The position numbers and the translations under genes were made by a program. Source: Pseudogemmobacter lacusdianii (GTDB lineage: Bacteria; Pseudomonadota; Alphaproteobacteria; Rhodobacterales; Rhodobacteraceae). Taken from it: DNA of 64,000 bases. The notes beneath the pieces are model-generated. The model was not told where the DNA came from. It did not search any database and saw nothing but the letters and a program-made list of their open reading frames with translations. This document shows positions 21,052 through 24,917 of the stretch, one piece after another. Every line of letters starts with the position of its first letter. Positions within the stretch are counted from its first letter, which is position 1. The stretch lies in the NCBI RefSeq assembly GCF_030848395.1, contig NZ_JAVDBT010000004.1, positions 62,001 through 126,000 on the forward strand. Reading direction: 5' to 3'.

Positions 21052-21972
21052 TCAGCCCCATATCCCCTCAAATTCCCGCCATTCCCCTTTGGACATGCCG
21101 GAATCTTCCTGAGACACGGTCTCACCTTTAAGGCGACGCTTCAGCACTGCAATCGCCTTGGCCGAAAGCGTGGTGCCGCCCATGCGGTAATCCTCGAAGG
21201 CGGCAAAGGCCAAAGGCACCCAATCTTTCACCGTCGCCGCAATCGCATCGGCATAGACGCGGATTTCATATTGGGCATGGGCATCGGCGCGCAGGCGCAG
21301 GAAATGGAAGAGGTTGTGCAGATCGGTCTTCCAATACCATTGGGTGTAAATATTCATCGGCAGGTTCATTCGCGCCAATTCGCGCGCAAGCCCTTGTTGC
21401 GGCTCACCATCCGGGCCCTCTTGGCCCAGCATTTGCGCGTAATTGTCGTAAGAACTCGCCGCATCACGTTTGAGGGTTTCCAGCACCCGCGCCGCCTCGG
21501 CGCCTTCCAGCACCGCGCCGCGGCCTTGGTTGTTTACCGTGGATTGCGCGGCAAGCTGCGCCGGTTCGGGGATGTAGAACTCGCGATCAAGGATCGAATA
21601 GCGCGCGGAATATTCGTTCACATTGGCGGTGCGGTGGCGGATCCATTGCCGCGCCACGAAGACCGGGAGTTTGACGTGGAGCTTGACCTCGCACATCTCG
21701 AACGGGGTCGAGTGCCAGTGCCGCATCAGGTAGCGGATGAGGCCCTCGTCGTTCGACACATGTTTGGTGCCAGCGCCGTAAGAGACGCGGGCGGCCTGCA
21801 CGATGGCGCTGTCGTCGCCCATATAGTCGATGACCCGGATGAAGCCGTGGTCGAGCACCGGATGGGCGCGGTAGAGATGTGCTTCCATGCCGGGCGAGGT
21901 GGCGCGCAGGGTTTGGCGCGGGTTGGCGCGGGCGGCCTCGATCTCGGCCAGCTGGTCAGGGGTAAGGGACAT
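21052..21972 (-). CDS. thyX: FAD-dependent thymidylate synthase
   Basis: 306 residues from ATG 21972, with AAAGG upstream. The ThyX signature HR-x7-S is present in [16 protein letters not shown] (Arg112-His113-Arg114, Ser122). The enzyme makes dTMP from dUMP using methylene-tetrahydrofolate, FAD and NADPH. The length is in the range for alphaproteobacterial ThyX with a long C-terminal region. It diverges from the lipoprotein/Slam pair over a 190-base intergenic region. Confidence 0.95.
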
Positions 21973-22162
21973 GGGCTTGGCCTTTCGATGGAACACGAGT
22001 CGGAGGCGACTGTATATGGGGGGAGCGGTTAGGGAAACCAGGTGGTGATGCCGACGGGGCACGCAGCGGCAAGGAAAATTGTAAACGCCTTCTTACCTTT
22101 GACTTTTGCTGCGCCGCGCCGCAAGTTTTGCCGACATTCAATTGATCGGGTGAGGATTTCTC

Positions 22163-23035
22163 GTGCACCGCATTTTATCTGCTATCTTTTGCGCGGGCCT
22201 GCTGGCTGGATGTGGCGGTAATCCTCTGGCCGATGGCGGCGGCGGTGGAGGCGGTGGTGGGGGCGGCGGTACCTCAACTATCCCGTTGGCGATCCGTGGC
22301 AATCTGCAAAGCGTGAACTATGATCCGGCGGGCGGTGGAGGTGCTGGGACGCTGACTGCGGTGATCGTGCCCTTGGACGCCAGCCCGATCACGGCGACTT
22401 TCACCCGTAATCCAAGTTTAGATACTCCCGGATTTAGGGCTTTTACATTCCGTGAGACCACTGCAAATCGCTATTTCGTCGCACTGCTGGCGCGTTCCGT
22501 TGATGGCGGGACGACTGCAGGGGTGGTCGGAAGCGCACAGTTCGCTGAGGTGGTCTGGGGCGCTAACTACACGGGCAGCAACTTCACGAAGCCCGTCAGC
22601 GGTGGACTTGCGACCTACCACGGCAATTACGCAGGCGTTCTGAATAAAGGTGTGGTGGCACCCGGTGGTGGCGGGGGCCAATTTGATGCAGTTCAAAATG
22701 ACCGCGTGCAGGGCAAAGTCGTCGTGAACGCGGATTTCACCGACAACGCACTGGAAGGCGCGATCTACGAGCGGCAAAATGTCGATACGGGTGACACATA
22801 TAATGACCTGTTGATGACAATCACAACGATCAAAGCGGACGGCACCTTCGAGGGTGATCTTGTTCATGAGCCAAGGGGACCCAATTTAGGCAGTTTTGCA
22901 GGTGCATTCGGGGGAGCAGGCGGATCGTCGGTAGCTGGTGGCGTTGACGCTAGTCTCGGTCCTGACTTGATAGAACGGGGTGTCTTCTTGGCTGAGAAAT
23001 GCGTCATGGGCGATCCGCTGCCCTGTCCGCAGTGA
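22163..23035 (+). CDS. TbpB-like surface lipoprotein (candidate Slam substrate)
   Basis: 290 residues from GTG 22163, with GAGGA seven bases upstream. The signal sequence MHRILSAIFCAGLLAGCGGN has a lipobox LLAGC (Cys17). A tract of 12 consecutive glycines (about 25-36, mixed GGN codons) gives a flexible tether. The C-terminal half looks like the TbpB/factor-H-binding-type beta-barrel: TYHGNYAGVLN, VVVNADFTDNALEGAIYER, IKADGTFEGDLVH and a closing ERGVFLAEKC. Codon use includes runs uncommon nearby (TTA, AGG, ACA). The next gene is a Slam homologue overlapping its stop, so it is inferred to be flipped to the cell surface. The ligand is unknown. Confidence 0.8.
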   Translation: MHRILSAIFCAGLLAGCGGNPLADGGGGGGGGGGGGTSTIPLAIRGNLQSVNYDPAGGGGAGTLTAVIVPLDASPITATFTRNPSLDTPGFRAFTFRETTANRYFVALLARSVDGGTTAGVVGSAQFAEVVWGANYTGSNFTKPVSGGLATYHGNYAGVLNKGVVAPGGGGGQFDAVQNDRVQGKVVVNADFTDNALEGAIYERQNVDTGDTYNDLLMTITTIKADGTFEGDLVHEPRGPNLGSFAGAFGGAGGSSVAGGVDASLGPDLIERGVFLAEKCVMGDPLPCPQ

Positions 23036-24414
23036 TCCGCCGGTTTCTTCGCGCCGCAGCTTTCGCCTGCCTTTGTCAGCCGTTGCCGGTGTTTCCGGCG
23101 GCGGCTGAGGCGCGAAGTGGGGCGGGTGAGCGGGCCGCTTTAGCGGCGGAGGCGGAGGCGGCTCTAGCGGCCGGTGAGATTGAGCTGGCACGGCTTTTGG
23201 CGCTGGCCGTGGTCGAGGATGAACCGAGAAACAGCCGCGCCTTAGCCGTCTTGGCAGCGGTTGGTCTGAGCCAGCAAGAGGCTGAGGCCGCGCGGGTTGT
23301 GGCCAAGCGCGCCTTCCGCTTTGGCAAAACCGAGCTGGAGCGCTTCACCGCGGCGCGGCTTGCGGCTAAGGCTTCGGCGGATCTCGACCAGTTTACCGCC
23401 TCGAAATATTGGCTCCGCCGGGCGCTGCACCTGGTCCCGAGTGAAGAGGCGCGCTCCGCCACCTTGCGCGATTATCAGACCTTGCGGCAAGGGAGCCGGG
23501 TGGTCGTCGATCTGGGCTTTAGCATCAAACCCTCGAGCAATGTGAACAGCGGGGCCGAGGATGCGCTTTTGACCGTGGATGGCGTGCCGACTTGGTTCTA
23601 TTTCGACCGCAGTTCGATGGCTTTGTCGGGGGGCGAAGCGACGGCTAAGGTCGCGCTGCGCTACCGCTTGAAAGAGAGTGCCACGGCGCTGACCACGCTT
23701 GGCTTCAGCATCAGCGCCCGTGGGGTGGTTTTGTCGGATGAGGCGCGGGCGGCGGCCCCCGCGGCGCGCGGTTTGGATTTCGCGCATATGGCGGTGGATG
23801 GGCTTTTGACCCAGCAATGGCGGCTGGATGAGGGACAAGTGTTGAGCGCGGGCCTTACGGCCGGATCCATCTGGTTCGGAGGTGAGCCCTATGCCGACCG
23901 GCTGCGCGCGGAATTGGCGCTCTCGTCGCAGCATGGGCCTGCATTGCAGTCACGCATCGGCTTTTCTGTCGAGCAACAATGGCGTGCCTCGGGCGGTGCC
24001 GCCGATCGCGCCTTGGCGCTGGATCTGGGGCTGCAGAAGGCCTTGGCCTCGGGCGATGCGGTGGCATTGCGTTTGGAGCTTGGCCGGACCCTCTCGGAGG
24101 ATCCCAATCAGCAAAGCCGGATGCTGGGCGCGAGCCTGCGCTATCGCCGGGGCGAGCCGGTCGCCGGGATGCGGCTTTCGGGCGGGCTGGATCTGAAGAC
24201 GCGGGACTATCCGGTGTTTTTCAACGCGATCTTCAATGACAGCGGGCGGCAGGACCGCTCGGTCTCAGTCTCGGCGGATCTGGCGCTGCCGAAATGGGAG
24301 GTCTTTGGCTTTGAGCCGGTGCTTTCCTTGCAAGCAAGCCGGACGAAATCCAACGTCAGCCGCTACTCCGGTGATGGGGTCGGGATCGGTTTCGGGATCC
24401 AATCCTCTTTCTGA
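23032..24414 (+). CDS. Slam-type surface lipoprotein assembly modifier (TPR + DUF560 barrel)
   Basis: 460 residues from GTG 23032, which overlaps the lipoprotein stop in GTGA. An ATG at 22999 gives a longer frame but destroys the signal peptide. Residues 1-25 form a signal peptide ending FPAAA. Residues 30-150 are Ala-rich helical repeats of TPR type. From about 155 on, the protein is a beta-barrel: GFSIKPSSNVNSG (162-174) matches the start of Slam barrels, and the C-terminus ASRTKSNVSRYSGDG...GIQSSF ends in Phe like outer-membrane proteins. Slam proteins move lipoproteins across the outer membrane. The partner is almost certainly the upstream lipoprotein. Confidence 0.82.
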   Translation: MIRRFLRAAAFACLCQPLPVFPAAAEARSGAGERAALAAEAEAALAAGEIELARLLALAVVEDEPRNSRALAVLAAVGLSQQEAEAARVVAKRAFRFGKTELERFTAARLAAKASADLDQFTASKYWLRRALHLVPSEEARSATLRDYQTLRQGSRVVVDLGFSIKPSSNVNSGAEDALLTVDGVPTWFYFDRSSMALSGGEATAKVALRYRLKESATALTTLGFSISARGVVLSDEARAAAPAARGLDFAHMAVDGLLTQQWRLDEGQVLSAGLTAGSIWFGGEPYADRLRAELALSSQHGPALQSRIGFSVEQQWRASGGAADRALALDLGLQKALASGDAVALRLELGRTLSEDPNQQSRMLGASLRYRRGEPVAGMRLSGGLDLKTRDYPVFFNAIFNDSGRQDRSVSVSADLALPKWEVFGFEPVLSLQASRTKSNVSRYSGDGVGIGFGIQSSF

Positions 24415-24488: not shown

Positions 24489-24917
24489 ATGACTTTACGC
24501 TATTTGCACACGATGGTTCGGGTGAAGGATCTGGAGGCCTCGATGGCCTTTTATCGGCTCTTGGGTTTGGAAGAGACCCGGCGGATGGACAATGAGAAGG
24601 GGCGATTTTCGCTGATCTTTATGGCGCCTCCCGGGCAGCCGGACTGCCCGGTTGAGTTGACCTATAACTGGGATGGCGATGATAAATTGCCGAGCGACAG
24701 CCGGCATTTTGGCCATTTGGCCTATGAGGTCGATGACATATACGCGGTTTGCGCGCATTTGCAGGCCAATGGCGTGGTGATCAACCGCCCGCCGCGCGAC
24801 GGCTATATGGCTTTTGTGCGCTCTCCCGACAATGTCTCGATTGAGCTGTTGCAAAAGGGTGAGACTTTGGCACCGGCGGAGCCTTGGGCTTCGATGGAAA
24901 ACACCGGGCATTGGTGA
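24489..24917 (+). CDS. gloA: Lactoylglutathione lyase (glyoxalase I)
   Basis: 142 residues. Two betaalphabetabetabeta modules carry the metal ligands His7, Glu56, His76 and Glu119 (YLHTMVRV, PVELTYNWD, FGHLAYEV, VSIELLQKG). It converts the hemithioacetal of methylglyoxal and glutathione to lactoylglutathione in the cytoplasm. It follows the Slam gene by 74 bases with its own AAAGGAG ribosome site and is convergent with ribD. The downstream gap holds a copy of the GAGTATTTG element. Confidence 0.93.
   Translation: MTLRYLHTMVRVKDLEASMAFYRLLGLEETRRMDNEKGRFSLIFMAPPGQPDCPVELTYNWDGDDKLPSDSRHFGHLAYEVDDIYAVCAHLQANGVVINRPPRDGYMAFVRSPDNVSIELLQKGETLAPAEPWASMENTGHW

Follow-up and report, generated by a model that had tools for sequence, protein, structure and literature searches.

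The locus analyzed here raises the question of what a lipoprotein gene and an overlapping outer-membrane exporter gene do between two core genes of the Rhodobacteraceae, and how they come to be there. It lies in a 64,000-nt stretch of Pseudogemmobacter lacusdianii (NZ_JAVDBT010000004.1, positions 62,001-126,000), hereafter the window, whose positions serve as coordinates throughout. A preliminary description had proposed a two-gene module in which a TbpB-like lipoprotein overlaps a Slam homologue through a GTGA stop/start. Both frames are present on the forward strand. The lipoprotein gene (22163-23035, GTG start, 290 aa) ends with a TGA at 23033-23035 and the exporter gene (23032-24414, GTG start, 460 aa) begins at 23032, so the overlap is real. 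Judging from profile matches and predicted structures, the protein pair is a Slam (type 11 secretion) exporter with its cargo.

The profile PF04575 (SlipAM, formerly DUF560) scored 24.1 bits on the exporter against a cut-off of 22, covering only residues 396-446 (51 residues), and it matched 12 of 23 Slam homologues at E<=0.01; an NCBIfam search of the Slam protein gave no match. The AlphaFold2 model, which was built from 23 sequences (pLDDT 90.9, pTM 0.77), contains seven helices in residues 31-154 and 14 long strands in residues 157-458, where 14 is the number of strands read off the DSSP line, leaving out two short strands at 179-190. The helices form a predicted TPR-like domain (23122-23493, forward strand), in agreement with profile matches to solved TPR chains, and the strands form a predicted outer-membrane barrel region (23500-24405, forward strand). 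The best solved-structure matches of the model were BcsC and PelBC, which also combine TPR and barrel, followed mostly by porins; no Slam was among the 50 PDB matches listed. The sequence motifs flagged beforehand (SIKPSSNVN, RTKSN, and the terminal Phe) proved to be conserved: in 16 aligned sequences P167, N170, N172, S440, and F460 do not vary, and G174 hardly does. The Slam-type exporter of the preliminary description is thus upheld as a prediction.

The cargo carries a lipobox, LAGC (22202-22213, forward strand), whose Cys17 is invariant in 21 of 21 aligned cargos, and a Gly-rich linker. Its AlphaFold2 model (mean pLDDT 86.1, pTM 0.81), built from an alignment of 21 cargos with strands counted from the DSSP line, predicts an N-terminal seven-strand handle domain (residues 48-138; 22304-22576) and a C-terminal eight-strand domain (residues 149-279; 22607-22999), both on the forward strand. 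In a Foldseek search against the PDB, the 50 matches listed were all TbpB, factor H binding protein (fHbp), hemophilins, or NHBA, some of the fHbp entries being chimeras or antibody complexes. The best match reached E 1.5e-6 at probability 1.00, and the fold match is partial, because TM-scores are low (0.31-0.47 by query length, rmsd 7-16 A). At the sequence level, TbpB_B_D (PF01298) scored 15.4 bits, below its cut-off of 26, and NCBIfam slam_lipo scored 17.8 bits, below its cut-off of 80; in all, TbpB_B_D matched just two of 21 cargos at E<=0.01. The label "TbpB-like" therefore holds for the predicted fold and fails for the sequence, and of the two proteins only the exporter scored above a family cut-off. 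The two features of a Slam-dependent surface lipoprotein, a lipobox and eight C-terminal strands of the SLP fold, are both predicted here, the latter with the low TM-scores given above; as far as tested, both the DUF560 match with a barrel in the exporter and the SLP-type barrel in the cargo were found. Translocation of lipoproteins with such eight-strand barrels is established for the Slam family, and by analogy the Slam of the window probably exports the neighboring lipoprotein.

According to the mechanism we propose, the lipoprotein would carry a lipoprotein signal peptide and be routed to the outer membrane, where the TPR domain and the 14-strand barrel of Slam would recognize the C-terminal eight-strand barrel of the cargo and move the cargo to the outer leaflet; the N-terminal handle domain would then face outward and bind a ligand. 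The cassette, with its own probable promoter, would occupy a fixed slot flanked by two divergent core genes, thyX and glyoxalase. Since cargo and Slam would be cognate, they would be inherited and exchanged as one unit, and close relatives would have the slot empty or filled with one of several very different cassettes. The simplest and most likely route of exchange would be homologous recombination in the flanking core genes.

The left border of the slot is a flavin-dependent thymidylate synthase gene, thyX (21052-22062, reverse strand; PF02511, 189.5 bits), whose start is probably further in, and the right border is a glyoxalase or lactoylglutathione-lyase-like gene (24489-24917, forward strand; PF00903, 69.5 bits). 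A second, divergent ThyX-like match of 85 bits is present elsewhere in the window genome (C48:115148-115762). Between thyX and the cargo gene lies a probable cassette promoter, TTGACT, 17 nt, CAAGTT (22099-22127, forward strand), which was taken from a comparison of TTGAC across loci, the second hexamer being read by eye. In all 21 loci compared (the window and 20 of 23), TTGAC stands 54-81 nt ahead of the cargo start, against a mean of 1.8 loci in shuffles preserving base content only. A simple sigma-70 scan did not report this promoter, nor any other site ahead of the cargo gene; the one site it gave is within that gene. The recurrence of TTGAC before the cargo start in all 21 loci suggests that the cassette has its own sigma-70-type promoter.

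In a set of 60 genomes that includes the window genome, Slam was matched (E<=0.001) in 18 genomes at 19 places. Compared by eye, 17 of the 19 are within ~400 bp of the glyoxalase gene, and the lipoprotein is present in all 17 of these slot loci, the window included; two weaker Slam-like places are elsewhere (G013 C12, G014 C4). Within the window genus the cassette was found in six of 13 genomes, and in two others (G010, G011) the ThyX domain and the glyoxalase gene are within ~330 bp of each other. In Pseudotabrizicola, the empty locus L035 has 14 bp in place of the 2376 bp of the filled locus L038, so that the L038 cassette begins 42 nt ahead of the cargo start and ends 6 nt past the Slam stop. 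The 17 remaining filled-empty comparisons involve more divergent loci, and in them similarity returns 29-125 nt downstream of the Slam stop. A repeat search of the L038 and window cassettes returned repeats that are inside genes or do not pair the borders, none spanning both borders. Other genes may also use the slot, because the thyX-glyoxalase interval of G027 (L025), ~2.1-2.6 kb long, matches neither the Slam nor the cargo profile. In G030 (L024:4127-6520), the Slam reading frame stays open over 798 codons and shares a long overlap with the cargo frame, and the Slam match falls into two pieces in the same frame.

The history of the cassette was compared with that of its flanks on 40 loci, whose tree rows are all different and whose cargos split into type A, with a C-terminal Cys pair, and type B; L005 has no such pair and was placed in type A by its sequence, which clusters there. 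On the Slam tree, cargo type changes two times (shuffled mean 13.2; none of 500 shuffles as low). On the glyoxalase tree it changes 12 times, which is near random (shuffled mean 13.2; 153 of 500 as low) and weakly placed, since that tree has no starred branch, and on the thyX tree of 18 rows it changes five times (shuffled mean 5.8; 173 of 500 as low). Distances gave the same picture. The Slam-cargo correlation is 0.52 on 31 loci, a set that takes in cut ThyX pieces, 0.48 when redone on 18 loci, and 0.46 on 40; Slam-glyoxalase distances are uncorrelated (-0.01, 40 loci), and thyX-glyoxalase distances correlate at 0.65 (18 loci). Weak correlations exist between cargo and thyX (0.24; nine of 500 permutations as high) and between cargo and glyoxalase (0.12; 11 of 500 as high). 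Slam and cargo thus share a phylogeny that the flanks hardly follow. Apart from this division, the Cys pair of type A cargos directly follows the last barrel strand (window residues 280 and 288; 23000-23026) and possibly closes a C-terminal loop by a disulphide; type B cargos have no C-terminal Cys pair.

Individual pairs of close relatives point in the same direction. UBA1943 (L041, type A) and Fuscibacter oryzae (L043, type B) are 98% identical in ThyX and 95% in glyoxalase, and they are 31% identical in Slam and 32% in cargo. They are joined by the thyX tree (99%), and sisterhood of their Slams was rejected (AU p 9.5e-58), as it was for L081 and L111 of Tateyamaria, also joined by the thyX tree (AU p 2e-4), and for L009 and L019 of one genus, with glyoxalases 93% identical (AU p 1.4e-5), all three pairs having been chosen after identities and quick trees had been viewed. 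Not every close pair differs, as L038 and L048 retain related cassettes (60%). The DNA similarity of L041 and L043 (91%) stops at the cargo signal peptide, 64 nt into the gene and about five codons past the lipobox Cys, and returns at the Slam stop, 6 nt before that codon ends. As read from these sequences, related bacteria appear to exchange the pair as a single unit at one fixed chromosomal position, and the thyX-glyoxalase interval is best regarded as a slot in which cassettes are gained, lost, or replaced by others.

On the predicted folds, the pairing, the fixed slot, the shared phylogeny, and the breakpoints computed here, we consider it likely that the locus is a two-gene Slam cassette of cognate cargo and exporter that is exchanged as a unit in the thyX-glyoxalase slot. 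A rival reading is that exporter and lipoprotein diverge very fast in place, without exchange, and Slam homologues are 24-58% identical to the window Slam. However, the L043 Slam shares 58% identity with the Slam of L054 and 31% with that of L041, its sister in thyX, L041 and L043 carry different cargo types, and the AU tests reject Slam sisterhood; divergence in place is therefore very improbable, and we reject it. Differential loss of several ancient cassettes may also have shaped the pattern. As to function, the TbpB and hemophilin structures among the fold matches would suit a co-receptor for iron, haem, or another TonB-linked ligand, comparable to TbpB or HpuA of Neisseria. The cargo fold does not indicate the ligand, because fHbp and NHBA match too, and the cassette is missing from many close relatives. 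The preliminary description had seen no TonB-dependent receptor nearby, and this was confirmed: the genome has three Plug matches, none beside the cassette and the nearest ~65 kb away on the same contig. This distance makes an iron co-receptor unlikely, and it was dropped as the leading idea.

PMC12282271 raises, in its text, possible ties of such loci to one-carbon, thymidylate, or aldehyde metabolism or to DUF1194 proteins, for example in metal or cofactor uptake, and ThyX and glyoxalase flank the Slam cassette both here and in the published loci. This reading was weighed in a census anchored on the glyoxalase protein, an anchor chosen because it does not select for Slam. The 80 loci fetched are the best 80 of 587 confirmed places, nearest by glyoxalase and hence a non-random sample near the window genome; six were not evaluable upstream, among them L085 and L093 with Slam cut by a contig end, which left 74. 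Counts from this census and from the 60 genomes were not summed, because the two sets overlap. Slam is present in 23 of these 74 loci, and in every one of the 23 a lipoprotein lies just upstream. For L042, L082, L083, L094, and L113 the cargo start was set by eye; alignment A5 leaves out L048, L053, and L111, and alignment A6 leaves out L053. ThyX was found in 18 of 23 loci with Slam and in 37 of 51 without it (Fisher p 0.78), and DUF1194 in eight of 22 with and 14 of 48 without, the off-frame row of L117 being left out (Fisher p 0.59), with both p values serving as a guide only, because the loci are related and sampled near the window genome. Moreover, five of the 23 Slam loci have no ThyX within ~6 kb upstream, 14 of 22 evaluable Slam loci have no DUF1194 inside the examined flanks, G008 and G014 have Slam and no ThyX match in the genome, and the window genome has no DUF1194 match. 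Since both neighbors are about as common without Slam, their co-occurrence looks like synteny, and ThyX and DUF1194 look to belong to the glyoxalase locus rather than to Slam in particular. A functional link of Slam to either was therefore rejected, and the metabolic tie as a whole is quite improbable.

Returning to exchange of the cassette as a unit, we favor with moderate confidence a broader reading, in which the thyX-glyoxalase slot of Rhodobacteraceae would be dedicated to variable surface proteins. Complete exporter-plus-cargo cassettes would enter, leave, or replace one another there through homologous recombination in the core genes on either side, because each cargo type would work only with its own Slam clade. 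The slot would then be the protein equivalent of a capsule or O-antigen locus, with changing ligands, phages, or grazers as the driving force; escape from phages or grazers may be the selective cause. The cassettes give natural matched and mismatched Slam-cargo pairs, and Slam-cargo specificity is therefore directly testable in environmental bacteria.

The window genome also contains a second PF04575 exporter (40.7 bits) on contig C18 (L023:4606-8123), whose best match is 21% identical in the 59 other genomes and 24% in plasmids. Immediately after it comes a 734-aa protein that has a signal-peptide-like start, a long GGGDN-type linker, no visible lipobox, and an S-layer homology domain (24.9 bits against a cut-off of 20.8), which is a possible non-lipidated SLH cargo type.

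The closest known system is cluster 3 of PMC12282271 (2025), which, according to its text and Fig. 8 legend, is a Rhodobacteraceae/Roseobacteraceae locus of ThyX, cargo, T11SS outer-membrane protein, and glyoxalase, the cargo being an SPII lipoprotein, 282-375 aa long, whose barrel has eight strands. The preliminary description had held that the cargo function looks new; as a claim to a new kind of system this does not stand, since the published locus matches. The window shares with it ThyX, the T11SS protein, the lactoylglutathione lyase, a cargo within the size range, and the bacterial group, and differs in DUF1194, which belongs to the published locus and has no match in the window genome. 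Given the ThyX and glyoxalase flanks, we regard the window locus as a further cluster 3 member, as synteny and taxon suggest. The text of that paper speculates that cluster 3 is a transitional locus and gives the barrel domain as rare (eight of 145 loci), missed detection being one option its authors name, whereas every evaluable Slam locus has a cargo here. With cargos in 23 of 23 loci and TbpB_B_D finding two of 21, the published rarity is probably a matter of detection, and we suggest that the scarce cargo and the one-carbon co-occurrence, both published, largely reflect weak profile detection and conserved gene order. PMC12282271 does not use the terms recombination, swap, or allel in its main text, and "horizontal" appears there twice, for cluster 1; our literature search, with most subscription papers outside its reach, returned no title on exchange of a ThyX/glyoxalase Slam locus. 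The kind of locus has thus been known since 2025, and what this analysis adds is its apparent exchange as a unit together with the synteny and detection readings.

Compared with the Neisseria Slam1 and Slam2 systems (for TbpB, fHbp, and HpuA), some of whose features are given in PMC12282271 and PMC8406197, the window pair has the same TPR domain with a 14-strand PF04575 barrel and the same lipidated eight-strand type of cargo. Unlike them, it has no TonB receptor partner nearby, its cargo is single-lobed and below the TbpB_B_D cut-off, and the cassette sits in a core-gene slot. The polysaccharide exporters BcsC, PelB, and PgaA likewise join TPR and barrel; however, PgaA has a 16-strand barrel (PMC8406197) and carries a polysaccharide, whereas the predicted Slam of the window has 14 strands and a lipoprotein partner.
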